Assembly: GCA_002691285.1 (NCBI GenBank)
Contig: NZHK01000018.1
Span: forward strand, 1-32,807
DNA length: 32,807 bases
Direction of reading: 5' to 3'
Source of the DNA: Fidelibacterota bacterium
Lineage (GTDB): Bacteria > Fidelibacterota > Marinisomatia > Marinisomatales > UBA1611
The translations under genes and the position numbers were made by a program. Below are positions 4,587-28,946 of the stretch, in pieces (the stretch's first letter is position 1; each line of letters starts with the position of its first letter). The notes under the pieces are model-generated. The model saw only the letters and a program-made list of their open reading frames with translations, was not told where the DNA came from and ran no database searches.

Positions 4587-5108
4587 TTAATCATTATTAT
4601 GTTTTATAACTTTTTGCTCAAGAAGTTTGGAGTAATTTAGGGTATCTAAATCTAGTGTTAGTTCATTAATCCATTTCCTTGTGGATTTTATATAAAGGTC
4701 TATATTTTCCATATTCATTCTTTTTGCATACATATTAGCAATAAGAACAGCTGATGGAATTGGTATATAACTATTCATAGGATCATTATAAAAATGATCA
4801 ATATTTTTGATTAATTCTCTAATAGTTAAATAATCTACCGTTTCAGAAAAAACATTATCTGCAATAACTTTGTTATTTTCCCAAGTTTTTAAATAGGAAA
4901 AGAGCCGTCCATCCAAAACCCCTTCAAGGTAAGCTTTTTTTATTATAAATTCATAATTTGTATTATAATCTGCTATTTTTTTTACACGATTCCAATCTCT
5001 TCCATCCCAAAACAACTTATTATCCTTTGGAAATACTTCGTTAAAATATAAGACAAATAGCAATAATAGAGTTTTATAACCAAATATTTTCAAAGATTTA
5101 ATCATCAT
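4587..5108 (-). CDS. Small secreted protein of unknown function, coupled to the aldehyde dehydrogenase
   Basis: This 173-aa protein has an N-terminal hydrophobic segment (KTLLLLFVLYF, about residues 12-22) that fits a signal peptide or anchor. The mature part has the pattern DGRDWNRV...AYLEGVLDG, then FYNDPMNSYIPIPSAVLIA. This resembles small uncharacterised secreted proteins in which an NG-x-x-W motif precedes a G-x-x-DG helix and a later 'IPI..A' segment; I know no function for them. The start overlaps the end of the upstream aldehyde dehydrogenase by 11 bp (start ATG at 5108, second in-frame ATG at 5105), so the two are very likely translationally coupled. Either Met could be the true start. 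Confidence 0.7.
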   Translation of the reverse strand: MMIKSLKIFGYKTLLLLFVLYFNEVFPKDNKLFWDGRDWNRVKKIADYNTNYEFIIKKAYLEGVLDGRLFSYLKTWENNKVIADNVFSETVDYLTIRELIKNIDHFYNDPMNSYIPIPSAVLIANMYAKRMNMENIDLYIKSTRKWINELTLDLDTLNYSKLLEQKVIKHNND

Positions 5109-6471
5109 CTATTACAATTGTTTTTATGTTGACAAACTCCATAAGTCCGTAAATAGATAACTCTCTACCATATCCAGATTGTTTTATTCCCCCAAATGGT
5201 AAACGTGGATCAGATTTAACAAAATCATTTACAAAACAAAGTCCAGCGTTTAATCTGTTTTTAGCAATTTCCTTACCCTTATTGATATTTTTTGTAAAGA
5301 CTGCAGCTCCTAATCCAAAAGGGGAATCATTTGCTAAGTCTATAGCATGATTTTCATCTCTTGCTTTTATTACAGCAAACACAGGGCCAAAAATTTCCTC
5401 ATCAAAAGCAACAACCCCTGGTTTCACGTTTGAAAGTAATGTAATTGGGTAAAAAGCTCCAGGTATATTAGGGATCTCTCCTCCAATGATAAGATTTGCA
5501 CCACCTTCAACCGATTTTAAGACCTGTTGATGTACTTCTTCTCTAGCTTCTAAGGAGACCATAGGACCTATATCAACATCATCTTTTGGATCTCCCATTA
5601 TTTTTTTTAATAATTCATGTTCTAAAGATGATAAAAACTGATCGTGAAGAGGATCAACCACAATTAATCTTTTTGCAGATATACAGCTTTGTCCAGTATT
5701 TAAAATTCTACCACTTATACATGAATCAACTGATTTTTCAATGTCTGCATCATCCAATATCAAATAAGGATCATTTCCTCCAAGTTCTAAAACTGACTTT
5801 TTAAGTTCTTTACCAGCAATCTCTGCGACGGATCTACCTGCAGGAGTACTTCCAGTCAAAGTTACAGCAGATATTTTTGAATTTTTTATTACCTTAGACA
5901 CATTTTTCCCAGAAATGGAGATATTTTGGAATAAATGCTTTGGAAAGCCTGACTTTGCAAAGGAGGTTTCAATACTAAAAGCACACCCTTGCACATTTGA
6001 AGCATGTTTTAAAATAGCTCCATTACCAGCAATTATACTAGGAACCGCAAACCTGAGAACTTGCCAAAAAGGGAAATTCCATGGCATTATTCCGAGTACC
6101 AAGCCAAGTGGCCTTAAAGTAACAAAACTTTTTTGGCCATCTGTTTTAATTTTTTTATCCTCTAAGTATTTTCCTGAATTTTCTATATAGTAATTACAAA
6201 GCCAAATACATTTTTCAATTTCACCAATACCCTGTTTAAATGGCTTACCCATTTCTTCTGCCATCAATGAAGAATATTCTCTTTTGGAATCATAAAGAAC
6301 TTCAGAAAGTTGTTCAAGGCATTTTAACTTGAATTTTAAATCAGTATTTTGCCAATTTTTTTGAGCTTCAATAGAATTCTTTAAAATATTTTCTATTTCT
6401 TCATTACTATGTTGATTGTAAGATCTAATTTCAAGTCCTGTAGTAGGATTAATAGAAAGCAAAGGTTTCAT
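5098..6471 (-). CDS. NAD(P)-dependent aldehyde dehydrogenase, succinate-semialdehyde type (GabD1/YneI-like)
   Basis: This 457-aa protein is full length for the aldehyde dehydrogenase superfamily. It begins with SINPTTGLEI, as succinate-semialdehyde dehydrogenases do. Cofactor site: MPWNFPFWQVLRF (N131) and LKHASNVQGC (K154), a wording typical of the GabD1/YneI (Sad) branch. Catalysis: general base Glu in VLELGGND (E228) and nucleophile Cys in NTGQSCISAKR (C262). EIFGPVFAVIKA and PFGGIKQSGYGRE follow in the usual order. The likely reaction is oxidation of succinate semialdehyde, or a similar short aldehyde, to the acid in the cytoplasm; substrate choice is inference. It lies 99 bp downstream of the dehydratase fusion gene and is probably not part of the glycan pathway. 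The 3' end overlaps the small secreted protein gene. Confidence 0.9.
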   Translation of the reverse strand: MKPLLSINPTTGLEIRSYNQHSNEEIENILKNSIEAQKNWQNTDLKFKLKCLEQLSEVLYDSKREYSSLMAEEMGKPFKQGIGEIEKCIWLCNYYIENSGKYLEDKKIKTDGQKSFVTLRPLGLVLGIMPWNFPFWQVLRFAVPSIIAGNGAILKHASNVQGCAFSIETSFAKSGFPKHLFQNISISGKNVSKVIKNSKISAVTLTGSTPAGRSVAEIAGKELKKSVLELGGNDPYLILDDADIEKSVDSCISGRILNTGQSCISAKRLIVVDPLHDQFLSSLEHELLKKIMGDPKDDVDIGPMVSLEAREEVHQQVLKSVEGGANLIIGGEIPNIPGAFYPITLLSNVKPGVVAFDEEIFGPVFAVIKARDENHAIDLANDSPFGLGAAVFTKNINKGKEIAKNRLNAGLCFVNDFVKSDPRLPFGGIKQSGYGRELSIYGLMEFVNIKTIVIDDD

Positions 6472-6570: not shown

Positions 6571-9168
6571 TCAGGCGTGAGCTTTTGGGGAGGTTTTAAG
6601 TATTAGAGGTTCTACTTCGTCTTTTTTCAAAGGTTCATATTCAGGAACTAGAGATGTAAGAAGTGACCTCAGAATATTTCTATCGTATTCATGACTTATT
6701 AATTCGCCATCTATAATACGATTAGAAATTTCCTTAATTTTTATTTCTGATATATTAGGATGTACCTGAATTATTTTATTATGCCCTGTTTTGGATGATA
6801 ATTGATTATTTAATTCATTATCTTTTGGAACAGTTTCACCAGCTCTAGTACCAATGTAACTAATGGGTATATCTTTCCCATGCTCATTGCCAGAGATTCT
6901 TATTAATTCTTTTGCAATATCTAGAATTTTAATGGGATTCCCCATATCTAAACTAAAAATTTCACCGCCTTCACCAAAAGCACCTGATTGCAAAATTAAT
7001 TTAGCTGCCTCAGATGAAGACATAAAATAACGCTCCATTTCCGGATCTGTAATTGTAACTGGGCCACCACAGTTTATCTGTTCTTTTAAAACATTTATAA
7101 AACTACTTTTACTATCAATTAAGTTCCCAAATCTAACTGCCATAAAACGAGTATGCATATTATGATTAGCACCTTGACAGATTACTTCAGCTAAACGTTT
7201 TGTCGCGCTCATAATATTTATTGGCTTTACTGCTTTATCTGTGCTAATTAAAATAAATTTTTCCACCTTATGTTTGGATGATAATTTTACAAGGTTTGAA
7301 GTACCATTTATATTAGTTTCTACAGCTTCCCAAGGAAAGGACTCTTGCATGGAAACATGTTTATACGATGCAGCATGAAAAACTATTTGAGGCTCATAAT
7401 TATTATAAATTTTTGATAAAATATCAAAATCCCTTACATTTGAAAGTAATGGTTTCAAAAGGACATTTGTTTGTTGCGATAAAACTTCCCTTTCTATATT
7501 CATTAAACTATTTTCATGCTTATCAATAATAACTAGAAGAGCAGGTTCGTAGTTAAGGCATTGTCTAACCATCTCTGATCCTATCGTACCACCAGCTCCA
7601 GTAATTAAAATTCTTTTGCCATGAATATATTGTCTAATAAGATTTTTATCTAAAGATACTTCATTCTTACCAATTAAATCTAGAATAGATACCTCTTTCA
7701 AGCCAGTTAGCCCTAAACCTCCTGATATTATGCCATTAATTGATGGAAGCATCCTAAATGGCTTCCCAGATTTTTTACATATTTCAAAAATTTTCAATAA
7801 ATTTTTTCTTTGGGTATTTGGGCAGCATACAAGAACTTCATCATAATTTGGGAAAAAATCAGTTAAATCCGAAATTTTTCCAAGCACTTTTCTTCTGTGT
7901 ATATATTTCCCTTTAAGGTTTTTATCATCATCTAAAAATCCAATTGGATCCATTAAATGCTTTGAATTGTTTAAAAGCTCTCTACAAATAAATTCCCCAG
8001 CCTTACCTGCACCAATTAAAATAACCCGTTTTCTAAAATTAAATCTGTAGGGATTTGGATTTAATAAATGAGAATATATCAGCCTTACACTTAACCTCGA
8101 TGCAGATGTAAGAAGAATAGAAAGAACAAAATCAATGAATATAATTTCAAGATGTAAAATTTGAAATCTAGCAATACTTAGGGAACAAAATACCAAGGAA
8201 ATAGTAGACAATAAATTTGCTTTTAAGATTTGGGAGACATCCGTTATGCTAGTATATCTCCACATTCCTTTGTGAAGATTGCACATATAAAAAGCTAATA
8301 GCTTAATGCCCAATGTTGCACCAATAATTAAATGTAATTCAGGATGAAAGAATAAACTTGGAGTAGTAAAATTACTAGCAACAATAGAAGATAATATTAT
8401 ACTCGCAACAATAGTAATTATATCCATTAGAATCATAATTCTTCGATTCCTTCCATTGTTTTCTTTGACTTCCTTATGATCTGATAATTTCATTCTTACA
8501 TTATCTACAATTCTATTTAAGCTTATTTTTTCATTATCTTCAATCTTAAGAAGCTTTATAAAAAGATAATGTCCCATTCGTTTTGGAGTAAAAAGAGAAA
8601 GAATAGTAATCGTAACTAATTTTAAATCTTGCAAGAATCCTTTCTTAGTTACATAATAGTTATCTAAAGCAAGTTTAATATTTAATATTTCTTGATACGG
8701 GTCATCCGAATCTATCATTGACAAAATATCAGATTCGTTTCTAAAAATAATTGATGAATATCCTGAAAGTCCTGGTTTTATTTTATTTAAGAAAGAAAAA
8801 GTACTTTTATCCACATATTTTGGAATCTCAGGTCTAGGTCCAATAAAGCGCATATCTCCTTTAATTACATTTACTAACTGAGGTAATTCATCTAATTTTG
8901 TTTTGCGAAGAAATTTACCCCATCGAGTCACCTGTAGCAAATCACCATTATGGGAAAGAATGGTGTCTCCGCCCTTATTTTTAATAGTCCTAAATTTATA
9001 GATATTAAACTTTTTAAAATTTCTACCTACCCTTGGCTGAATGAATATAATAGGCAGTCCCTGAATAACTAAACTGACCAATGCAATAAAGACAAACAAA
9101 GGTGATAAAGCAATTATTAATAATAATGCCGTTAATCTTGAGGTTATTTCCATTACTGTAATATTCAT
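6571..9168 (-). CDS. Fused phosphoglycosyl transferase and NDP-sugar 4,6-dehydratase (PglC/WcaJ-like + FlaA1/WbpM-like)
   Basis: This 865-aa protein carries two enzymes that are usually separate. Residues ~1-210 are a monotopic phosphoglycosyl transferase (bacterial sugar transferase): an N-terminal membrane helix with the SPL break (~22-24), YKFRTIKN (57-64), the catalytic Asp-Glu pair in KTKLDELPQL (D93-E94), FIGPRPE (108-114) and KPGLSGYSSI. It would move a sugar phosphate to undecaprenyl phosphate. Residues ~245-370 hold four hydrophobic segments of CapD/WbpM type. Residues ~380-500 form a first Rossmann domain (LIGAGKAGEF). Residues ~518-830 form an extended short-chain dehydrogenase domain: TGAGGTIGSE (523-532), HAASYKHV, STDKAVKPINIMSATK. 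The usual Tyr of Y-x3-K is Met (M653-x3-K657), the normal state in WbpM/PglF dehydratases. The gene has its own 252-bp upstream spacer. No frameshift or internal stop separates the halves. Confidence 0.92.
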   Translation of the reverse strand: MNITVMEITSRLTALLLIIALSPLFVFIALVSLVIQGLPIIFIQPRVGRNFKKFNIYKFRTIKNKGGDTILSHNGDLLQVTRWGKFLRKTKLDELPQLVNVIKGDMRFIGPRPEIPKYVDKSTFSFLNKIKPGLSGYSSIIFRNESDILSMIDSDDPYQEILNIKLALDNYYVTKKGFLQDLKLVTITILSLFTPKRMGHYLFIKLLKIEDNEKISLNRIVDNVRMKLSDHKEVKENNGRNRRIMILMDIITIVASIILSSIVASNFTTPSLFFHPELHLIIGATLGIKLLAFYMCNLHKGMWRYTSITDVSQILKANLLSTISLVFCSLSIARFQILHLEIIFIDFVLSILLTSASRLSVRLIYSHLLNPNPYRFNFRKRVILIGAGKAGEFICRELLNNSKHLMDPIGFLDDDKNLKGKYIHRRKVLGKISDLTDFFPNYDEVLVCCPNTQRKNLLKIFEICKKSGKPFRMLPSINGIISGGLGLTGLKEVSILDLIGKNEVSLDKNLIRQYIHGKRILITGAGGTIGSEMVRQCLNYEPALLVIIDKHENSLMNIEREVLSQQTNVLLKPLLSNVRDFDILSKIYNNYEPQIVFHAASYKHVSMQESFPWEAVETNINGTSNLVKLSSKHKVEKFILISTDKAVKPINIMSATKRLAEVICQGANHNMHTRFMAVRFGNLIDSKSSFINVLKEQINCGGPVTITDPEMERYFMSSSEAAKLILQSGAFGEGGEIFSLDMGNPIKILDIAKELIRISGNEHGKDIPISYIGTRAGETVPKDNELNNQLSSKTGHNKIIQVHPNISEIKIKEISNRIIDGELISHEYDRNILRSLLTSLVPEYEPLKKDEVEPLILKTSPKAHA

Positions 9169-9420
9169 TTAAACTTGATTAAAAACAATCTCTAAAATTG
9201 TGTTGGTGACAATCATCACATCTGAAAAATCAACAATTAAAAAACGAAATAGAATGACGAATTACAAGGTTTTGCAACCCAAATAAATCAATGAACAGCA
9301 TATAATACCTCGGAAATATTATATTTAATATTATTTAAAATTAAAGATTATTGGCAAGAAAAGTTTATGGTTAAAAAAAATCTTTAAAAACTAGATTTTT
9401 TTTCCAAAAATAAACTTATC
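9169..9420. other. 252-bp spacer upstream of the PGT-dehydratase fusion
   Basis: There is no coding frame worth calling here. It holds the terminator-like repeat at 9373-9403 and a second, purely AT inverted repeat, AATATTA (9315-9321) and TAATATT (9326-9332), with a 4-base loop. This is the longest gap in the cluster's left half, so a promoter for the fusion gene is expected. I see no convincing -35/-10 pair and none of the Bacteroidota TTTG / TAnnTTTG type. Confidence 0.5.
9373..9403 (-). terminator. Candidate AT-type terminator after the aminotransferase gene
   Basis: An 11-base perfect inverted repeat, AAAAAAAATCT (9373-9383) and AGATTTTTTTT (9393-9403), surrounds a 9-base loop and lies 17 bp beyond the aminotransferase stop codon. 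Read on the minus strand it makes a hairpin whose 3' arm ends in eight U. The stem has only one G-C pair, so it is weak as a hairpin; the U run and position support termination. It is symmetric, so it could act in either direction. Confidence 0.4.
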
Positions 9421-10575
9421 TCATATTGAATATTTTACAAATAATTCCTTTATGCAATCTATGATGTAATCAACCTCTTTATCAGTCAAAAGTGGGTATA
9501 TAGGAAGAGATACTATTGAATTAAATAATTCATTCGCTCTTGGATAATCATCATTTTTTAATTTGTACATTTTTTTATAAAATGAAAGATGATGAATAGG
9601 TTTATAATGAACTGCTAATCCAATTCCCTTTTTATTCAATTTATCAATAAAGTCATTCCGTGAAATTTGCCATAACTCTAGATTAAGCCTTATCACATAT
9701 AGGTGCATTGCATGTTTTTGATCGATGTTTGGAAGAATAATTCCTTCAACATCTTTAAGTCCTTTTGAATATCTTTTAACAATATCTTTTCTTGATGATT
9801 GCCATTTTTTTAAAAATTGCCACTGCCACAAAGCAAAAGATGCGGAAACATCTGTCATATTATATTTAAATCCAAGCTCAGTAATATCATATTCCCATTT
9901 TCCAAATTTTTTATATCGATTCCATCCATCTTTTGTAATACCATGCAGAGATAATTTTTTAATTTTTTGAGCTAATTTCTTATTACTTGTTGCTAAAGCT
10001 CCACCTTCTCCTGCTGATGTAATATTTTTATTGGCATAAAATGAAAATGCAACAGCATGATTTAAGTATTCTTCTTTTTTGTTATTAAAACTATTTTCAA
10101 CAGCATGAGCCGCATCTTCTAGAACAAAAAGACCATATTTTTCTGCAATAGATATGATATTTTCCATGTCATTTAATTCACCACCATAATGCATTGGAAT
10201 AATTGCTTTTATATTAGTATCTCTTTTAATTTTATCTTCTATAAAATTTAAATCAATCAAAAATCCATCCTTTTTACAATCAATTAGAACCGGAGACATC
10301 CCCAAATATTCTCCACATTCAATAGTAGAAACAAAAGTTAAGGCAGGAGCAAGAAATTTATCTCCCTTATTAAATTCTTTTGCTACAAGGGCTAAATGGA
10401 GTCCCGCTGTACATGAACTAAGAGCAACAACATGTTTATAGAGTAGATAATTAGAAAGTTTTTTTTCAAATTTTAGTACTTGTGATCCGGTTGTAAGCCA
10501 TCCACTTTTAATTGAATCAGTATTGATTTTATCTAAGTTCTTGGGGATATTAGGTCTATGAAAAGGTATATTCAT
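9421..10575 (-). CDS. DegT/DnrJ/EryC1/StrS family sugar aminotransferase
   Basis: This 384-aa protein has the usual family length. It begins IPFHRPNIPKN, then SGWLTTGSQVLKFEKKL, the classic start of NDP-4-keto-sugar aminotransferases. The PLP site is clear: SSCTAGLHLAL (53-63) for phosphate contact, LEDAAHA (152-158) for the ring-binding Asp, and the Schiff-base Lys in FYANKNITSAGEGGA (K183). These enzymes transfer an amino group from glutamate to a 4-keto-6-deoxy sugar nucleotide, so this is the natural partner of the 4,6-dehydratase encoded next (PglE/perosamine-synthase role); the exact sugar is inference. Its ATG overlaps the TGA of the Wzi-like gene (ATGA, 10572-10575), which implies translational coupling. 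Confidence 0.92.
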   Translation of the reverse strand: MNIPFHRPNIPKNLDKINTDSIKSGWLTTGSQVLKFEKKLSNYLLYKHVVALSSCTAGLHLALVAKEFNKGDKFLAPALTFVSTIECGEYLGMSPVLIDCKKDGFLIDLNFIEDKIKRDTNIKAIIPMHYGGELNDMENIISIAEKYGLFVLEDAAHAVENSFNNKKEEYLNHAVAFSFYANKNITSAGEGGALATSNKKLAQKIKKLSLHGITKDGWNRYKKFGKWEYDITELGFKYNMTDVSASFALWQWQFLKKWQSSRKDIVKRYSKGLKDVEGIILPNIDQKHAMHLYVIRLNLELWQISRNDFIDKLNKKGIGLAVHYKPIHHLSFYKKMYKLKNDDYPRANELFNSIVSLPIYPLLTDKEVDYIIDCIKELFVKYSI

Positions 10576-11951
10576 ATTTTAGTATGTAATGGGAAATAAA
10601 TATCAAAACCCGCTTCAAGTTTACTTTGGTTGTCATGTTTTTCAACCTTCTCGTGATCAAATTTTATTAAAAAAGATAAATATGGTTTATACCACCATTG
10701 GATTCCTATTTGTGCAAAGAGGATTTTTCTAAAATCACCGCTTGGAAATACAGCAGATGAATAATCTATATATGGGCTATAAGAATTCTCAGTTATACTA
10801 TTAATTCCCAAATCTCTCTTACCTAGGTTTCCACTTACTAACATATTAATACTATCACTATATAGATTTAATCCAAACTTAGATTCTCTACCATCACTAC
10901 CGTGACTCCACCCTAACGGTTCTTCTCTAGCAACAAAATTATTTTTCCCATCCTCATGTCTAAAAGTGTTGGTACCGATTTTGATCGTAGAAAAATAAAT
11001 ATTTAAAAGATTATGTTCACTTAAAATATTAGAAGAATATAGTATTTTAAATGAAAATCCTCCTTCACTATTTTTATTAGCATCTTTTTGTACTTTATCT
11101 AACACAAATTCATCAATTAAATAATTAAATGAAAATTTTAAGCTCCTTCGAAATAAATAATCCATACTTAATTGCCAAATACCATTACCGCTATCTGTTC
11201 CCAAATCATTTTGTTTATCATTTAACTCAATTTCTAAATGTGTTGAAATTGGATTAAGATAAGAAAAATCTATTACCCTATTTTTACCTGAGTATATCAC
11301 TACTTCAGATAAGCCTAAAAGGAAGTTTTTTTTATTATTCCATTCAATACCTCTTCCAGTGATATATCTATTAACAAATAAAGTATCCGTTTCAAGATAC
11401 CCATTAAAATAACGAACTCTTAGATTTTTAAAATCCAAATCTAACATTCCATAATCATATGAATTTGAATTCTCACTTAATCCTAACTGAATATCATTGC
11501 CAGCCCCCCAACTTTCTCTACCCCTTCCAAATTGGAAAATAAGCCAATCATTTTCGAAACAGATCCCTGATTGGTCATTTTCTCCTGAAGTAAAACCATA
11601 CCGACTGATATCTCTTGGAATACCTGAATATCTTTCAAATAAATCGGGATAATTAACAACTCTAGAATACAAATATCCATGGAAGTTATCTTTATATGTA
11701 AAATGTCCATAGCCATAAAGGGATCTTGCTTTATTAAAGGCCTGAATTCCAAAGCGGCTATTAATTATCAAGGAGTCCGATTTACTTTTTGAATTAATTA
11801 TACGTGGCGGTCCAAATATAGAATTTTGGTCCCAATTTTTACCAGAGTCAATCAAAAGTTTTCTTTTGTGAAACTCTTTGAATTCATTAGGAATTGTTTG
11901 GCATGGTAAAAAATTACAAGCTAGAAAGAATATGAAGAAAAAAAACTTCAA
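10572..11951 (-). CDS. Wzi-like outer-membrane beta-barrel protein (capsule assembly)
   Basis: This 459-aa protein starts with a Phe-rich signal peptide (residues ~1-18, ending near FLPCQ). The mature part is a run of short amphipathic beta strands ending in an aromatic strand, FDIYFPLHTKI, as expected for an outer-membrane barrel. FGRGRESWGAGND (141-153), followed by LGLSENSNSYDYG, matches the conserved core of the Wzi/capsule-assembly family, which helps anchor capsule or O-antigen-like polymer on the outer surface. The start codon is TTG at 11951, seven bases after the TAG of the upstream GT2 gene, with a possible AGAAG ribosome site just before it. No ATG lies near, and the signal peptide begins exactly there. 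A lone 89-aa frame at 11483-11752 is a shadow. Confidence 0.75.
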   Translation of the reverse strand: MKFFFFIFFLACNFLPCQTIPNEFKEFHKRKLLIDSGKNWDQNSIFGPPRIINSKSKSDSLIINSRFGIQAFNKARSLYGYGHFTYKDNFHGYLYSRVVNYPDLFERYSGIPRDISRYGFTSGENDQSGICFENDWLIFQFGRGRESWGAGNDIQLGLSENSNSYDYGMLDLDFKNLRVRYFNGYLETDTLFVNRYITGRGIEWNNKKNFLLGLSEVVIYSGKNRVIDFSYLNPISTHLEIELNDKQNDLGTDSGNGIWQLSMDYLFRRSLKFSFNYLIDEFVLDKVQKDANKNSEGGFSFKILYSSNILSEHNLLNIYFSTIKIGTNTFRHEDGKNNFVAREEPLGWSHGSDGRESKFGLNLYSDSINMLVSGNLGKRDLGINSITENSYSPYIDYSSAVFPSGDFRKILFAQIGIQWWYKPYLSFLIKFDHEKVEKHDNQSKLEAGFDIYFPLHTKI

Positions 11952-21139: not shown

Positions 21140-22335
21140 ATTCCAATCTCCGTAGTTTTTTTATAAAAATCATGAAATTGACTTTTTATTAAAGTGGTGT
21201 TCAAATTTTGATTTATAAATTTTTCCCCCTCTCTAATGATTCTTTCTCTTTCCTCGATTCTAAGATTCATGACTTTTAGTAATAATTTTTCTAATGCAAC
21301 TGAATCTCTAGATGGAAAATAAAATCCATTTCTACCATAATTAATAATTTCTTTCATTCCACCACAATCACTACTTATAACAGGTAGTCCTATAGCCATA
21401 GATTCAAGAACTACATTTGAAATACCCTCTTGAACGCTAGGAAGAATTAAACAATCTGATTGTCTCATAATTTCATAAACTTTGTCTTGGGAATCTGGAT
21501 GAACAATTTCAATATTATTTTTTAATGATAGCTCGTCTATTTGATATAATATTTCTTCTGATATACTATTGTTTGTAATAATTAAATAATGGATATTTTT
21601 ATTTATTTTTTTAAGATTCGCAAATGCTGAAATACTATATTGATAGCCTTTTACCCAATGGAACCGACCAACCGAAAGAAAACGAAAAGGTCTATGGGGT
21701 TTAAAATTATTTTTTTTATATGTTTTTAAAAGACCTAAATCCAGGGATGAATAGATAATATCTGTTTTATCCCTACTCGCTCCATACTTTTCAGCCTTTA
21801 ATAAAATTTTTTTAGAAACAGCATGCATTCTATCAACATTTGGAAATAAAATATTATAATTTTTAGCAAGAGAATCATTAGCAAAAGCTGAGTAATTTAT
21901 ATGAGATCCTCTTAGACTTAAAACAATCTTCACACCATATATTTCTTTTAAAAAGAACCAAAAAGGTAATGATTTAGCCCATTGAATATGAAAAATATCT
22001 GGAGTATGGTTCAATACTGGTAAAATTTTACTCAAAGATTTAAAGATAGATCCTGATTTTGTGAAAACTTTATAATTTCTTATCAGTTTATATAACTTTT
22101 TTGGATAAAAAATAAATAATCGAAATAGTTGAAAAAACACAAAATAAATAATTTTTATTTTTCCTTGAGGGGTAAAAAAAATTTTTATGCTTGAATTTTT
22201 ATATTTAACCGATCCTTTATTTCCAAACAAATATATATTGATTTTTTCATCTCCAATTAATTTTATAAGGTTTTCAATAAAATTTGGAGCAGGAATTATT
22301 CCAGAATAAATAGCTACGTTTATTTTCTTTTCCAA
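21136..22335 (-). CDS. Glycosyltransferase family 4, paralogue of the next gene downstream
   Basis: This is a 399-aa GT-B enzyme. VALYSG-like first strand (VAIYSGIIPAPNF), IVLSLRGSHINYSAF, DRMHAVSKKILLKAEKYG, FRFLSVGRFHWVKGYQY, and E-x7-E in VQEGISNVVLESMAIGLP, then VISSDCGGMKEIINYGRNG. It has the same layout as the adjacent paralogue encoded downstream. The start is TTG at 22335: the in-frame codons just before it are TGA, AAA, ATT, so no earlier standard start exists, and the frame overlaps the end of the asparagine-synthetase-like gene by 16 bp. Expected role: one sugar transfer on the cytoplasmic face during repeat-unit assembly. Confidence 0.9.
   Translation of the reverse strand: MEKKINVAIYSGIIPAPNFIENLIKLIGDEKINIYLFGNKGSVKYKNSSIKIFFTPQGKIKIIYFVFFQLFRLFIFYPKKLYKLIRNYKVFTKSGSIFKSLSKILPVLNHTPDIFHIQWAKSLPFWFFLKEIYGVKIVLSLRGSHINYSAFANDSLAKNYNILFPNVDRMHAVSKKILLKAEKYGASRDKTDIIYSSLDLGLLKTYKKNNFKPHRPFRFLSVGRFHWVKGYQYSISAFANLKKINKNIHYLIITNNSISEEILYQIDELSLKNNIEIVHPDSQDKVYEIMRQSDCLILPSVQEGISNVVLESMAIGLPVISSDCGGMKEIINYGRNGFYFPSRDSVALEKLLLKVMNLRIEERERIIREGEKFINQNLNTTLIKSQFHDFYKKTTEIGI
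21148..21151 (-). promoter_or_regulatory. Ribosome binding site GGAG that supports the TTG start at 21139
   Basis: On the minus strand the sequence reads GGAG, eight bases, then TTG AAG ATC. This is a normal Shine-Dalgarno core at normal spacing, and it supports TTG at 21139 as a true start in a TTGA stop/start overlap. Confidence 0.6.
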
Positions 22336-23696
22336 AATTTTTCACACCATAATGAAAGAGTTAATAACATACTTATTGGATGACTGAAAACAACTTTGTT
22401 TTCAGTCAAAAACTTTTGATAAAAATTATTTACTACGCTTAGAGGTACAATATCATTTAAAAAATTCTTATCAAATAACCAACGTTCTAAATGTTTTTTA
22501 TTCTCAGACCCTAAAAATTGTAACTCCCAGTTTCTTTGAATGACTGAGGGTTTATTTAAAATTTTTTCATAAAAATTACGTATTAAGAACCTATAAATCC
22601 TTCTTGGGAAAAAAAAATTATTAAAATATTTATAATTATATAGATTTAAATCATATACCTGCCAAGGTATTTTTGCTAAACTAGGGGAAGTATTTTGTAT
22701 ATACTTAATTTGAATTTTTCTGTCTTGCAGATAGGCATTAGGAATAGAGCATATAAATTCGCATATAGCATTTTCGTAATAAGGTGCAAATAGTTCACAT
22801 TTACTTGCAAAAATATTTAAATTTGGATTTGCCCATCTTTGAGCCCAATGTATTGATTTAAACGCCTGCACTCTCCTGCTTGGGTTTTCAATTTTTATTT
22901 CTAACAATAACTCTTTAATACGATTAAATAATATTTTTTCGAACTGTCCAGTAAAACCCCATTTCTCCCATAATTTTTTTGATAACAAAAGACCACCCGG
23001 CTTAACAATCTTATTAAAAAGAAATCTAGTTTGATTATCTAAATTTTCTTTTGCACTAAGTTTTGGTAAGTCAAAGAAAACATCTCCCCATTGGCCTGAA
23101 ATAATAAGATCACCAAGTTTAGATATTTGATCAATAACTGCCATTTGCCTCGGATGAATAAAATCTGATTGGCAAAAATTAATTTCTGCTAATCTTTCAA
23201 TTCTCTTCCAAAGATATCCTTTAGGAATCAAATAATTATAAAAGGGCCAATTCATTTCTTCACTTATTTTTTTCGCATATTTTATTTCTTTGACACCACC
23301 TAAAAACTCATATGAATAAGTAACAATATTATCTGTATTTCGCAAAGCTGAAGCTATCGTTCGAGAATCTAGACCTCCTGAGAGTGGTAAAATAATGTTT
23401 TTGTTTTTAACATTACTTATAATAAGAGTCTCAAAAATATGAGTAAACTCTTCTACCGCACTTTTAAAAGTGATATCCCTTGGCTCATAATACCAATTTG
23501 ATTCACAACTAAAATCTGTTTCTTGACCATATTTTTGTTTTGTGAAATTATTATCACCTAAAAAAAATCCACAAGCAATCCATTCTGCTATGGAGTATAA
23601 ATCAATATCACCCTCATAGTTATGATTGATATTTTTTCTTTTATTATAAAAAATATATTTTTTTATTTTTTTTTTCTTATTTTTTCTAAAATCCAT
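22320..23696 (-). CDS. Asparagine-synthetase-like protein lacking the glutaminase domain
   Basis: This 458-aa protein has the ATP-pyrophosphatase domain of asparagine synthetase: LPLSGGLDSRTIASAL (PP-loop SGGLDS, 106-111), TYSYEFLG, and a later ISGQWGDVFFDL (199-210) where glutamine-dependent AsnB has SGDGGDELF. ERWxxD-type C-terminal helices follow. The N-terminal class II glutaminase with Cys2 is absent: the protein begins with a Lys-rich stretch, and in-frame sequence upstream hits TAG at 23714 after five codons, so it is not hidden by start choice. Such shortened forms may use free ammonia, work with another amidotransferase, or activate a carboxylate for a different amine. It is the first gene of its block, after a 359-bp gap. 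The true substrate is unknown. Confidence 0.85.
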   Translation of the reverse strand: MDFRKNKKKKIKKYIFYNKRKNINHNYEGDIDLYSIAEWIACGFFLGDNNFTKQKYGQETDFSCESNWYYEPRDITFKSAVEEFTHIFETLIISNVKNKNIILPLSGGLDSRTIASALRNTDNIVTYSYEFLGGVKEIKYAKKISEEMNWPFYNYLIPKGYLWKRIERLAEINFCQSDFIHPRQMAVIDQISKLGDLIISGQWGDVFFDLPKLSAKENLDNQTRFLFNKIVKPGGLLLSKKLWEKWGFTGQFEKILFNRIKELLLEIKIENPSRRVQAFKSIHWAQRWANPNLNIFASKCELFAPYYENAICEFICSIPNAYLQDRKIQIKYIQNTSPSLAKIPWQVYDLNLYNYKYFNNFFFPRRIYRFLIRNFYEKILNKPSVIQRNWELQFLGSENKKHLERWLFDKNFLNDIVPLSVVNNFYQKFLTENKVVFSHPISMLLTLSLWCEKFWKRK

Positions 23697-24055: not shown

Positions 24056-25186
24056 TTAATTTAAACTTAGTATTTTTTTATAAATTTTTTCATGAGCCTT
24101 AACTTCATTATTTATATCATATTTATTCAATACATGTCCTCTATAAATATTTTTTTTATCCTCTTTCTCCAATATTAAATTTTCTATTTTTTCTGCAAGG
24201 CTATCTGGGTCACCGGGAGAAAATAATAGATTAGGAAATGGATCCAAAATATCTTTAATACCACTGACATTACTTCCAACGGGAGAGATACCGCATGACA
24301 TTGCTTCCAATAAGGATACTGGGCATCCCTCACCTTTTTTAATGGTAGGAAGAACAAATATATCTGCAAGAGAATAGTAGTCTATCACCTCATCTACTTT
24401 TCCAACAAAATGAATATTTGATTTAAAAATACTTTTTCTTGCATTATTTTCCATCATCTTGCCGTAATCACCATTCTTGTTACCTACAAGAAATAACCTG
24501 ATAAAATTATATTTATAAGATAACTTTATAAAAGACTTTAAAAGAACGTCAATCCCCTTCACCGGAGAAAGGTTAGCAACAGTAAGTATTACTATCTCAC
24601 TTTCAAGAATATTATACTTTTTAATCAATGATATTTGCTTTTTTTTCGGAAAAAACTTTTTTGTATCCACGCCCCTTGGAACCAATGAAGTTTTTTTAGA
24701 TTTTTTAAAGAACATATTTTGCATGTCTCTATTTTGTATAAGTATATGAGAAGATAATATAGAGCGAATTTTCCACCCGTTTTTAGAGCTCCCACCCCAA
24801 TTCATATTTTTTTTTGTATAGACCCATGGGATACCAGCAATTTTCGCAGCTAATGCCTCTGAGTAGTCCGGACCATAATGGAATGAGTGAATCAGATCCA
24901 TGTTTAATTTTTTAAAAAATTTGGATAATTGATAGCAATTGAATACTCCCTCTAACCGAGGCTTCATTTGAACTTGATTATTATTAATATAAAATGGAGT
25001 TCCTGAACTAATTACTTTTTTAAATAAAGATCCTTCTGAATGAGAACAAGATATGTATGATTTAAAAAACTTTTTATCTAAGCGACTACAAAGATTTAAT
25101 AGCGCTTTTCCGCTCCCAGCAGTATCAAAGTTTGGTATCGTGAATAATATTTTCCATTTTTTATTATTTTTAACCTTTATTATCAT
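24056..25186 (-). CDS. Glycosyltransferase family 4
   Basis: This is a 376-aa GT-B enzyme. KILFTIPNFDTAGSGKALLN is the N-terminal glycine loop; LIHSFHYGPDYSEALAAKI and VYTKKNMNWGGSSK follow. The donor domain starts at ILTVANLSPVKGIDVLLKSF; E-x7-E is KKGEGCPVSLLEAMSCG, followed by GSNVSGIKDILDPF. Together these place it firmly in GT4. It overlaps the AsnB gene upstream by 17 bp and is the last gene before the 359-bp spacer. A 61-aa frame at 24184-24369 on the same strand is a shadow. The sugar transferred is unknown. Confidence 0.9.
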   Translation of the reverse strand: MIIKVKNNKKWKILFTIPNFDTAGSGKALLNLCSRLDKKFFKSYISCSHSEGSLFKKVISSGTPFYINNNQVQMKPRLEGVFNCYQLSKFFKKLNMDLIHSFHYGPDYSEALAAKIAGIPWVYTKKNMNWGGSSKNGWKIRSILSSHILIQNRDMQNMFFKKSKKTSLVPRGVDTKKFFPKKKQISLIKKYNILESEIVILTVANLSPVKGIDVLLKSFIKLSYKYNFIRLFLVGNKNGDYGKMMENNARKSIFKSNIHFVGKVDEVIDYYSLADIFVLPTIKKGEGCPVSLLEAMSCGISPVGSNVSGIKDILDPFPNLLFSPGDPDSLAEKIENLILEKEDKKNIYRGHVLNKYDINNEVKAHEKIYKKILSLN

Positions 25187-27023
25187 TCCATACCGCTAGA
25201 CTATAAAGTGTAAATAAGGGCCATTTGTAATCATTTTTTTCATTAATGTGATCATTAATTATTTCTTCCATTTTATTAATTTCAATACCAAAAAAATGAC
25301 AAAATTTTTCATCTAATAACTTCTCACAGAATGTATTTCTATAATTCTTAATTATCCAATATTTTAATGGTATTGAAAGCCCTTTTTTATTGAATTCCGG
25401 CTTAATATTTCGAAAGGATTTAATTAAAAGATCATAAAGAATTTTCTTCCTTTGTTTCATAGGTGAATGTGTTTCGATGCCCGTTTTTACTATTTTTTCA
25501 ATAAGTTTTTTTTTCAAAAATGGAACTCTAACTTCAATGCTATTTGCCATTGCTGCTCTATCAACCTTAGTGAGAGTTTTTTGAAGCATGCCATAAAATT
25601 CTACTTTTCTTATCATATGTAATAGTTCATTTTTTGTTTTTGGATTTGAATATTTATATAATTCAAAGCTTTCTGGAAATGGAATATTTCTTAGTCCCGG
25701 TACTAGCTTATTATAAAAATCCTTAGTTTGCATACTATGTAACCCAAAATGTGAATCACCAGGAGAGGAAGATAAAACGCATTCATTAATGAATTTATCA
25801 TCAAAAATTAACCTGTCAAGTCCTCGTAAAAGGTACCTTACATAAAAAGGATAATTCCAAAGCCAATGATTTTTTGCAATTGATTGAAACCGTTCATAAC
25901 CAAAAAACAATTCATCAGCACCATCGCCAGATAATATCACAGTAACTTTTGAAGAAGCTGCATGACTTAATTTCCATGTTGGAAGAATTGATGAGTCTCC
26001 AAAGGGCTCACCTGCTTTTCGTAATATATCATCAATATAAGAAAAAGAATTTTCAGAGGTCATTTTTTCTATATGATGTTTAGAGTTTAAAGCTTTAGCA
26101 TATTTACTAGATTGATGAGTCTCATCATGAATTGCACTATCTGATCCAATTGAAAAAGTATTAAAATCACCAGTAATATAATTTTTTGCATAATTACAAA
26201 TTAAAGGTGAATCAACGCCCCCAGATAAGAAAGCCCCTAATGGGACATCTGAGATTAGTTGTTCCTTAACAGAGTTCTTTATTTCATTTTCGATTATATT
26301 TCTAGCATCATTATAATCAATCATTGAATTATCAAATTCAGGAAAAGACCAGTATCTTTTTTTTTCTAATTTTCCATATTTATCCAATTTTATAATCTCT
26401 CCAGGGAATACTGAATAGGTATTTTTTAGAAGACCAAATGGAGGCGGGATATAGTGTTGAGAAATATATAATTTTAGCACTGATCGATTAATTTCTTCAT
26501 CAATAAAAAACGGATGACAACTTATCTGATTATATTGACTAGAAAAAACAAAACCTTTCCTATTACATCCATAAAACAATGGTTTAACACCTGCAAAATC
26601 CCTAGCTAGAGATAAAGACCTTGTTTCTCTATCCCATATCCCAATTGCAAACATCCCTTCGAGAGACTCTATTGATTTATTTATTCCCCATTTATCAATA
26701 AAATAAGCTAAGGATACAGTATCACCATGACTTTTAATATTTTCTCCAATTACGCCAAGATTTTTCCTCAATTCTATATGGTTATATATTTCTCCATTAA
26801 AAACAATTAAATAACGTCCTGATGGTGACCAAATTGGTTGAGAAGCTTCCTTTGATAAATCAAGTATAGATAAACGATTAAATCCAAAACGAACTTTACC
26901 TGAAATAGATTTAATAGAACTCTCATCTGGACCTCTGCTCTTCGAAATATCTAATATTTTTTTAAATCTTTCTATAGAGGGTAAGCTATTTGACGGAGAA
27001 TATTCTCCTAAAATTCCACACAA
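25170..27023 (-). CDS. asnB: Glutamine-dependent asparagine synthetase family amidotransferase (AsnB-like), copy 1
   Basis: This 617-aa protein is full length. Residues 1-~200 are the class II glutaminase: Cys2 in MCGILGEYSP, FNRLSILDLS (R50), FNGEIYNH (76-83) and HGD (99-101). The synthetase half has AFLSGGVDSPLI (PP-loop 267-272), ILSGDGADELFFGYERF (364-380) and TKVDRAAMANSIEVRVPFL. The start is TTG at 27023. This is fixed by function, since class II glutaminases need Cys as residue 2 and the codon after this TTG is TGT. The chemistry is ATP-driven amidation of a carboxylate with glutamine nitrogen. Inside a glycan locus the substrate is more likely a sugar acid than aspartate (compare WbpS and WbtH of O-antigen loci), but housekeeping asparagine synthesis is not excluded. 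Confidence 0.93.
   Translation of the reverse strand: MCGILGEYSPSNSLPSIERFKKILDISKSRGPDESSIKSISGKVRFGFNRLSILDLSKEASQPIWSPSGRYLIVFNGEIYNHIELRKNLGVIGENIKSHGDTVSLAYFIDKWGINKSIESLEGMFAIGIWDRETRSLSLARDFAGVKPLFYGCNRKGFVFSSQYNQISCHPFFIDEEINRSVLKLYISQHYIPPPFGLLKNTYSVFPGEIIKLDKYGKLEKKRYWSFPEFDNSMIDYNDARNIIENEIKNSVKEQLISDVPLGAFLSGGVDSPLICNYAKNYITGDFNTFSIGSDSAIHDETHQSSKYAKALNSKHHIEKMTSENSFSYIDDILRKAGEPFGDSSILPTWKLSHAASSKVTVILSGDGADELFFGYERFQSIAKNHWLWNYPFYVRYLLRGLDRLIFDDKFINECVLSSSPGDSHFGLHSMQTKDFYNKLVPGLRNIPFPESFELYKYSNPKTKNELLHMIRKVEFYGMLQKTLTKVDRAAMANSIEVRVPFLKKKLIEKIVKTGIETHSPMKQRKKILYDLLIKSFRNIKPEFNKKGLSIPLKYWIIKNYRNTFCEKLLDEKFCHFFGIEINKMEEIINDHINEKNDYKWPLFTLYSLAVWNDNKG
27021..27023 (-). promoter_or_regulatory. 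TTG start codon fixed by the catalytic Cys2
   Basis: On the minus strand TTG is followed by TGT GGA ATT, giving Met-Cys-Gly-Ile. Because the nucleophile of class II glutamine amidotransferases must be residue 2, this TTG has to be the start. An AGGA lies about 13 bases before it, a little far for a standard ribosome site. Confidence 0.85.
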
Positions 27024-27071
27024 TTTAATTAATTATCCTGTTTATAAATTTGTTAATTAAATTTAAAAAAA

Positions 27072-28946
27072 TTAATTTTCGTGATGATAAACTAATTTTG
27101 CCCATTTTTGTAAGGAATATAAAGTCCACAAACCCCATTCATTATTAATTCCATTGCCTTTATAATAATCGTTTACCATATCATAAATTACCTTTGAATC
27201 TATAAATTCATTTCCAAATAAGTTTTGACTCATAAGAGTATCTGTAAAATCTTCTTTTAATTCATTTTTTAATAGTCTGTTTAAATCGAATGAGAATCCT
27301 TGCTTATGACTAAGAAAATAATTTTCTGGAACATATTTTTTTAATATATTTTTTAACAAATACTTTTTATTTCTATGTGAAATTCCAAGCTCAGGACTAA
27401 TTAAAGAACTAAAATCAATAATTCTTTTATCTAAAAAAGGGACTCTTACTTCAATTCCATTAGCCATAGATGCACGGTCTACTTTAAGCAGAACTCTTTG
27501 TAAGTGGCCATAAAACTCATTTTTTCTTAACCATAATAATATTTCTTTTGATGTTTTTACTGAATTCGGAATCGTATATAGCTGTTTGGTCGTAAATGAG
27601 TGACTAGCATCAGGCAATAATTTCTTTAATTGTGATGCCCATATAGGACTCTGACGATCAAACACCCAGTCTTCAATAGTTTCATATTCTATGCAAGAAG
27701 AAACCTTATTGCCTAATCTTCTTAAAATACCACCCCAAATTAATCTTAAATGCTTTGGATACTTAAACCAATTTTTATAATCTAATACAGATAGAAACCT
27801 CGTATATCCCCAAAAAAGTTCATCTCCTCCATCACCAGATAATAAAACTTTATAGTTTTTAGAAGCCTCTTGACAAAGTATAAAGGTAGGGATTGATGAA
27901 TAATCTGAAAAAGGTTCAGAAAAAGCCAAAAAGTGATCATCCAGACTGCTTTTTATCTTGTTACCATCCAGTATATTAATTTCATGATCTATTTCTAAAT
28001 ATTTACTAATTTTTTGAGCATTTTCTGCTTCATTAACACCTAAATATTCTGTTGAAATAGTGAAAGCTTTTAATTTATGACCTATTTTTGACAACACAGC
28101 ATTTACAATAGGTGAATCAACACCGCCAGATAAAAAAGATCCTATCGGAGCATCTGAATGTACGTAATCAATAAAAGTACTATCTAAAATGTTTGACAAC
28201 TTTTCAAGTGTTGATTGATTAGTTTCAATGTATTTACAATTTTCATTAAGAATGTGATATTTTTCCATATGGGCATCTAATTCGGAGTTTATTATCACAA
28301 ATGATCCAGGCTCAATCATCCAAGATTTTTCAAATAATGCTGATGGAGCTGGTATATAACCTAATCTTAAATAATCTGTTAAAGATTTTATATTGACTTG
28401 GATATCTGATTTAAACCACAAATGTTTGAAAATTTGATTGTATTGTGATGCAAAAATCCATCCAAATTTTGTTTGAGCAAAATATAATGGCTTTATGCCT
28501 GCGGGGTCTCTAATTAGGAAAATATTATGATTAATTAAATCATATACAACCATAGCATACATTCCATTAAGACGTTTGATAGTATTTTTAATACCATAAT
28601 AATCAAAAGCATGAGATAAAATTTCCGTATCAGATAAAGATCTTAGATCTTTTGTTTTTAAACCCATATCCCTTTTGAGTTTCATATAATTGGTTATTTC
28701 GCCATTGCACATCACAACATATTTATTTGATTTAGATATTATTGGTTGATTTGCATTGCGTGTAAGGTCTAAAATAGACAATCTATTAAACCCGAATTGC
28801 AAAAATGGAGTCTCATCCTTTTTTCCTTTTAGGTTATTATAATACCCAATCATGTCAGGCCCTCTTTTCTCACTTAATTTAAGCAAAGAATCAAACTCCC
28901 TTTTTGGGGACTGAATTTTCCCAAATTCGCCTAAAAGACCACACAT
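27072..28946 (-). CDS. asnB: Glutamine-dependent asparagine synthetase family amidotransferase (AsnB-like), copy 2
   Basis: This 624-aa protein has both domains. Glutaminase: Cys2 in MCGLLGEFGK, FNRLSILDLT, CNGEITNY, and SDTEIL in place of a plain GD. Synthetase: SFLSGGVDSPIV (PP-loop 273-278), LLSGDGGDELFWGYTRF (368-384) and KVDRASMANGIEVRVPFLD. The ATG at 28946 overlaps the preceding stop as TAATG, and GAGGA (28957-28953) sits six bases upstream, a strong ribosome site. It parallels copy 1 motif for motif, 48 bp away, so the pair looks like an old tandem duplication that has diverged. The likely role is amidation of a carboxyl group on a sugar of the glycan; aspartate cannot be excluded. 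Confidence 0.93.
   Translation of the reverse strand: MCGLLGEFGKIQSPKREFDSLLKLSEKRGPDMIGYYNNLKGKKDETPFLQFGFNRLSILDLTRNANQPIISKSNKYVVMCNGEITNYMKLKRDMGLKTKDLRSLSDTEILSHAFDYYGIKNTIKRLNGMYAMVVYDLINHNIFLIRDPAGIKPLYFAQTKFGWIFASQYNQIFKHLWFKSDIQVNIKSLTDYLRLGYIPAPSALFEKSWMIEPGSFVIINSELDAHMEKYHILNENCKYIETNQSTLEKLSNILDSTFIDYVHSDAPIGSFLSGGVDSPIVNAVLSKIGHKLKAFTISTEYLGVNEAENAQKISKYLEIDHEINILDGNKIKSSLDDHFLAFSEPFSDYSSIPTFILCQEASKNYKVLLSGDGGDELFWGYTRFLSVLDYKNWFKYPKHLRLIWGGILRRLGNKVSSCIEYETIEDWVFDRQSPIWASQLKKLLPDASHSFTTKQLYTIPNSVKTSKEILLWLRKNEFYGHLQRVLLKVDRASMANGIEVRVPFLDKRIIDFSSLISPELGISHRNKKYLLKNILKKYVPENYFLSHKQGFSFDLNRLLKNELKEDFTDTLMSQNLFGNEFIDSKVIYDMVNDYYKGNGINNEWGLWTLYSLQKWAKLVYHHEN

Follow-up and report, generated by a model that had tools for sequence, protein, structure and literature searches.

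A monotopic phosphoglycosyl transferase fused to a PglF-type 4,6-dehydratase in one family of Candidatus Marinimicrobia

The Fusion Protein and Its Proposed Role

In one family of Candidatus Marinimicrobia, a monotopic phosphoglycosyl transferase (PGT) and a four-helix/PF13727/PglF-type 4,6-dehydratase are joined in a single 865-aa protein, whose reading frame is unbroken in eight genomes. In the window (the whole stretch of DNA analyzed, 32,807 nucleotides), the fusion gene occupies positions 6571-9168 on the minus strand. The first-pass annotation had placed the gene correctly and left its strand unstated; across this interval the plus strand is full of stops and the single 865-aa frame lies on the minus strand. 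Sequence comparison shows a single origin of this fusion, and we consider it reasonably probable that it works as a bifunctional initiating enzyme, carrying the first and last steps of a sugar pathway on one membrane protein.

We propose that adjacent genes of an aminotransferase-PGT-dehydratase operon were joined in this family, placing the PGT at the N-terminus and the PglF-type dehydratase at the C-terminus. The short-chain dehydrogenase/reductase (SDR) half would convert UDP-GlcNAc to a UDP-4-keto-6-deoxy sugar with C5 retained, as predicted from its TDK and Met residues, and the aminotransferase encoded upstream, judging from its family and conserved position, would aminate C4. The PGT half would then transfer sugar-1-phosphate from UDP-2-acetamido-4-amino-2,4,6-trideoxyhexose to undecaprenyl phosphate. 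This transfer would start a polysaccharide, to which the glycosyltransferase, Wzy_C-type, and export genes in the rest of the cluster probably contribute. Fused in this way, the enzymes for the first and the last step would share one site at the membrane, separated by the PF13727 domain. In the window's genus (g1), catalysis by the dehydratase may be altered in specificity, weakened, or lost.

The domain order read by the first-pass annotation, PGT followed by dehydratase in one frame, was borne out by Pfam (PF02397, PF13727, and PF02719) and by the eight genomes. The PGT core (PF02397) spans residues 6-197 (positions 8578-9153, minus strand, as are all segments below), with the Pfam match at 11-193 (E 1.1e-43, 152 bits, profile positions 6-178 of 179). 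It is followed by an inter-domain linker at residues 198-240 (8449-8577), in which residues 198-207 are conserved among the fusions and the remainder is variable in the alignment. Hydropathy is high at about residues 10-39, the re-entrant helix, and in the 240-370 region; the membrane segments at residues 241-372 (8053-8448) are predicted to form a PglF/WbaP-type four-helix anchor, based on hydropathy and homology to full-length FlaA1/WbpM-type proteins. The PF13727 “CoA-binding” domain, with GAGKAGE at 386-392, was assigned to residues 376-490 (7699-8043; Pfam match at 309-474, E 1.1e-9), and the extended-SDR dehydratase domain to residues 515-812 (6733-7626; PF02719 at 520-802, E 2.3e-92, profile positions 1-291 of 293). 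The best solved relatives of the N- and C-terminal halves are PglC (8e37, E 2.3e-21) and Campylobacter jejuni PglF/WlaL (5bju, E 7.5e-64), respectively. An AlphaFold model of the fusion built from three sequences was too poor for use (pLDDT 40).

The N-terminal half thus has the features of monotopic PGTs (PF02397 core, Asp-Glu dyad, and re-entrant helix), and the C-terminal half has the PglF/WbpM-type layout of N-terminal membrane helices, PF13727, and PF02719. The combination of a PGT core with another glycoconjugate enzyme in one polypeptide, as in Bi-PGTs, is found in all eight genomes. Large PGTs carry four transmembrane helices (4TM) and PF13727 on the N-terminal side of the PGT core; the fusion does not fit this type, its PGT core being N-terminal.

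Distribution and Origin of the Fusion

Close matches of the fusion come from genomes of Candidatus Marinimicrobia (Neomarinimicrobiota). Eight of 245 genomes of the phylum carry the two halves without a stop between them, namely G000 (the window), G001, G002, G005, G010, G019, G025, and G027. They represent four genera of one family, at 55-89% identity; seven of the fusions are full length, and that of G002 is cut by the contig end at residue 728. The unbroken architecture in eight genomes rules out chance and artefacts of assembly or annotation. No fused homolog has a stop or frameshift near residues 220-245, the region where the first-pass annotation had suggested looking for evidence against a fusion.

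It is also conceivable that the frame yields two working proteins, with proteolysis or an internal start near M227/M245 separating the halves, and the fusion would then be nominal. There are several Met codons near the junction, and the linker evolves faster than the domains (dN/dS of 0.33 for residues 201-242 between G000 and G002). However, the junction is free of stops and frameshifts in all eight genomes, and we regard this explanation as very improbable.

In the dehydratase tree, a single branch sets the eight fusions apart (support 100/100; 100% of bootstrap trees), and the same grouping appears in the PGT tree at lower support (76/99). The sister pair of the fusions in the dehydratase tree, G008/G017, is unfused, and the G017 ORFs for PGT and dehydratase follow the order of the fusion with a 10-bp overlap. 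The unfused sister pair and the overlapping ORFs make the joining of adjacent genes the simplest origin, and the grouping of all eight fusions indicates that this happened once.

Several further candidates were rejected. In the phylum, these were G033 (a 983-aa “frame”), G158, and G135 (about 1130), as well as G001:C15, G016, and G182, which had been suspected from frame length; all proved to be distinct genes, divided by stops or gaps. The single-piece matches on Rhizobium plasmids are separate genes in one frame.

Gene Neighborhood and the Predicted Initiating Sugar

A gene encoding a 384-aa DegT/DnrJ/EryC1 aminotransferase, with ArnB-type proteins as its closest solved relatives, lies at 9421-10575 (minus strand) and is the next gene upstream of the fusion in all eight loci. 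The pathway logic put forward in the first-pass annotation, with the keto sugar made first and the PGT acting last, is sound, and the predicted enzyme for the middle step is encoded directly upstream. The aminotransferase, PGT, and dehydratase also occur as separate neighbors in G017, G033, and G182, with the aminotransferase again upstream. Outside the phylum, PGT and dehydratase genes lie close together on Shigella sonnei plasmids (as placed by the search match) and on plasmids of Rhizobium, Enterococcus, and Priestia. Besides these genes, the window cluster encodes several glycosyltransferases and a Wzy_C protein. Judging from their translations, genes for an ABC exporter pair and for a Wzc-like protein of the chain-length type follow further along the contig.

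This set of three enzymes speaks for a 4-amino-4,6-dideoxy sugar as the predicted initiating sugar, as the first-pass annotation had proposed for the first lipid-linked sugar, and its precise identity is a matter of prediction. In ten genomes, no PglD/NeuD-type acetyltransferase scored over the curated TIGR03570 cut-off, and full-length matches below the cut-off are present in G000 and G025. Because of this, we infer that a non-acetylated 4-amino sugar is more likely than diNAcBac. The fusion also predicts which sugar is linked to lipid first when members of an uncultured marine phylum build a surface polysaccharide.

Alternatively, the fusion may merely co-localize its two enzymes, with the PGT using a common substrate (for example, UDP-Gal or UDP-GlcNAc) and a glycosyltransferase adding the dideoxy sugar later, and the cluster does encode many glycosyltransferases. 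Two observations speak against this. The aminotransferase-PGT-dehydratase trio stays together across families, and in B. subtilis, where the PGT EpsL is encoded together with a dehydratase of the PglF type, EpsL uses the sugar produced by EpsCNM (PMC10653937). We therefore consider a common sugar as PGT substrate unlikely.

Beyond the aminotransferase gene, at 10572-11951 (minus strand), is a gene whose 459-aa product matches no Pfam family at E 1e-5 and is conserved beside PGT/dehydratase loci. Homologs of this protein (36-82% identity) are found beside a PGT/PglF-type dehydratase in most loci of family f1, with or without the fusion, including L015, L021, L022, L050-L055, L061-L063, and L066. 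The protein is perhaps a Wzi-like outer-membrane protein and a conserved partner of polysaccharide loci.

Conserved and Altered Residues in the Two Halves

The PGT half is well preserved. It has a Ser-Pro break in the membrane helix (S22-P23), GPRP at 110-113, and the D93-E94 pair, which the first-pass annotation had already read as intact and which is invariant across the window's genus, and none of its 19 near-invariant columns is altered. The active-site residues are intact, and sugar-1-phosphate transfer is predicted on this basis.

The dehydratase halves of the eight fusions were aligned with 37 separate dehydratases, of which 35 came from the phylum and two from plasmids of Rhizobium. 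Columns were taken as near-invariant when conservation reached 95% or more among the sequences outside the window's genus. The active site given for PglF and WbpM, TDKxnMx3K with Met replacing Tyr (PMC8987622), is present in the fusion (T643, D644, K645, M653, and K657). The window protein departs at 17 of 103 near-invariant columns, G001 at 11 of 103, and G002, whose sequence ends at residue 728, at 12 of 79, vs. 0-2 columns in the five fusions outside the genus. Most separate Marinimicrobia dehydratases depart at 0-3 columns and the most distant sequences at 5-10. Since eight altered columns are common to G000 and G001, these changes probably predate the split of the two. The loss of 11-17 near-invariant residues places dehydratase activity in the window's genus in doubt.

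The altered columns are clustered in two segments. The first (residues 680-695, positions 7084-7131, minus strand) reads FGNLIDSKSSFINVLK, where the family consensus is FGNVLGSSGSVIPxFx; within it, the columns at residues 683-694 change from GNVLGSSGSVIPxF to GNLIDSKSSFINVL. The second (residues 774-785, positions 6814-6849, minus strand) reads TRAGETVPKDNE, where the consensus is xRPGEKxxEELx; here GEKxxEEL has become GETVPKDN around residues 779-784, while R775, G777, and E778 are kept. Expressed as the motifs GSSGSVIPxF and RxGEKxxEEL, which are taken from conservation in the present alignment rather than from a published definition, the window has DSKSSFINVL and RAGETVPKDN instead. Both segments are altered in G001, and the first is altered in G002, where the contig ends before the second. 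The five remaining fusions have both segments, and the motifs in genera g4, g9, and g10 are canonical. The first-pass annotation had called the dehydratase complete, which holds for domain length and for catalytic T643, D644, K645, and M653 but not for these two segments or for the near-invariant residues lost in its own genus.

The substrate-binding domain of CapE is made up of residues 168-199, 227-260, and 310-337 (PMC3699295), and from the register of the motifs the two eroded segments appear to fall, approximately, in or at the edge of 168-199 and 227-260. An alanine mutant of CapE E257 is inactive (PMC3699295); taking E257 as the Glu of the CapE RxGE motif, we equate it with E778 of the fusion.

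One explanation for these losses is that the dehydratase half in the window's genus is a pseudoenzyme that does not turn over UDP-GlcNAc, the keto sugar coming from another dehydratase, and that the block of 4TM, PF13727, and SDR serves the PGT as an anchor, dimerizer, or nucleotide sensor, comparable to the N-terminal block in WbaP and other large PGTs. The number of lost residues, concentrated mainly in two near-pocket segments, their probable age, and the intact PGT half would all fit this explanation. So would the second canonical dehydratase that G001 and G002 possess beside a separate PGT, since with this second pair the fused dehydratase may be dispensable. Further, a four-helix and PF13727 block is common to large PGTs and PglF-type dehydratases, which has been called puzzling, and in WbaP the PF13727 domain responds to uridine nucleotides, with UMP inhibiting the enzyme at an apparent IC50 of 4.1 uM (PMC10942596). 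On the other hand, T643, D644, K645, M653, and R775/E778 are kept, E778 being the residue equated with an essential Glu in CapE, and the 86% complete G000 assembly yielded no further FlaA1/PglF-type dehydratase of full length. We view a pseudoenzyme as possible, though doubtful.

The dN/dS values are low throughout. In the comparison of G000 with G002, the PGT has a value of 0.05, PF13727 one of 0.055, and the SDR half one of 0.075; for G000 against G001, where synonymous sites are near saturation, the corresponding values are 0.089, 0.136, and 0.131. A relaxed, decaying pseudogene half is ruled out by the SDR-half values (0.075-0.131), which indicate purifying selection and thus a half that is maintained. 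They are consistent both with an active enzyme of changed specificity and with a conserved non-catalytic domain, and a low dN/dS would be equally expected of an active enzyme. The dehydratase of genus g1 may be active on a different NDP-sugar, taken up through the altered UDP-pocket segments, with the aminotransferase and PGT following the change. Kept catalytic residues, changed pocket segments, and strong purifying selection all point this way. The aminotransferase, however, was compared by its general conservation alone (88 and 70% identity within the genus), and we hold such a substrate shift only tentatively.

A more speculative and rather unlikely form of the non-catalytic explanation is that the dehydratase of this genus has become a conserved domain for nucleotide sensing or another non-catalytic role that regulates or dimerizes the fused PGT, in which case an architecture like that of large PGTs would have evolved independently, from a dehydratase, and been caught part-way. 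For the fusion as a whole, we favor the bifunctional initiating enzyme. We hypothesize that PF13727 serves both catalytic halves, and the block might sense UMP, the by-product of the PGT. With both catalytic domains on one four-helix and PF13727 block, UMP sensing and feedback on the dehydratase are testable in one protein. Canonical dehydratases in the sister genera and altered ones in the window's genus, on the same PGT, offer a natural comparison of presumably active and possibly retired forms.

Relation to Known Systems

The Bi-PGT class was reportedly described by O'Toole, Imperiali and Allen in 2021, with Neisseria PglB as an example. As the first-pass annotation had noted, small monotopic PGTs fused to other glycan enzymes form an already described class; the additional domains occur N- or C-terminal to the PGT (PMC10942596) and include sugar-modifying ones (PMC12802240). 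Like these Bi-PGTs, the present fusion joins a small PGT core to a sugar-modifying pathway enzyme, but its partner is a full-length four-helix PglF/WbpM-type dehydratase, an enzyme type that acts at the opening step of sugar modification and not at the final one. As far as we have seen, with fusions sought within the phylum, the restriction to a single family, the origin by joining of adjacent genes, and the changes in the dehydratase of one genus are new.

Taken separately, each half has familiar counterparts. The C-terminal half resembles C. jejuni PglF, P. aeruginosa WbpM, and B. subtilis EpsC in its layout of 4TM, PF13727, and SDR, its TDKxnMx3K site, and its best match (5bju), but it sits behind a PGT and, in the window's genus, has lost GSSGSVIPxF and GEKxxEEL. 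The N-terminal half resembles the small PGTs PglC and EpsL in its re-entrant helix, Ser-Pro break, DE pair, and GPRP, and differs from them in being fused to a dehydratase. WbaP/WcaJ large PGTs contain the same kinds of modules (4TM, PF13727, and PGT), in the order 4TM-PF13727-PGT and without a dehydratase, whereas in the fusion the PGT is N-terminal and the block is part of the dehydratase. As a set of aminotransferase, PGT, and dehydratase, the closest parallels are wbgX-wbgY-wbgZ of S. sonnei and wcfR-wcfS of Bacteroides fragilis, which are said to make and load 2-acetamido-4-amino-2,4,6-trideoxy-galactose; the genes are separate there, unlike the fused PGT-dehydratase here.

Additional Features of the Loci

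The separate PGT-dehydratase pairs of G001 and G002 (L050 5250-8719 and L051 3722-7487) are preceded by an NAD-dependent epimerase-like gene and not by an aminotransferase gene, which suggests a different sugar at this second locus, of the QuiNAc/FucNAc type.

The gap between the aminotransferase and fusion genes (window 9169-9420) is 252 bp long and AT-rich in g1 (G001 and G002 are similar) and about 45 bp in g9. Downstream of the fusion, an aldehyde dehydrogenase and a 173-aa protein with the motif LFWDGRDWN (window 4587-6471, minus strand) are encoded in g1, g4, g9, and g10, with other genes between them and the fusion in g9.

Ambiguous bases, seen as X residues, are abundant in genes of the same contig that adjoin the window (L049 211-2445 and 16527-19829), suggesting mixed strains or low coverage in that region; no such base falls in the fusion gene. 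The polysaccharide cluster also contains two asparagine-synthase-like genes side by side (617 and 624 aa; window 25170-28946, minus strand), and further genes of this kind are located at 22320-23696 and at L049 13293-15050 and 17642-19462.
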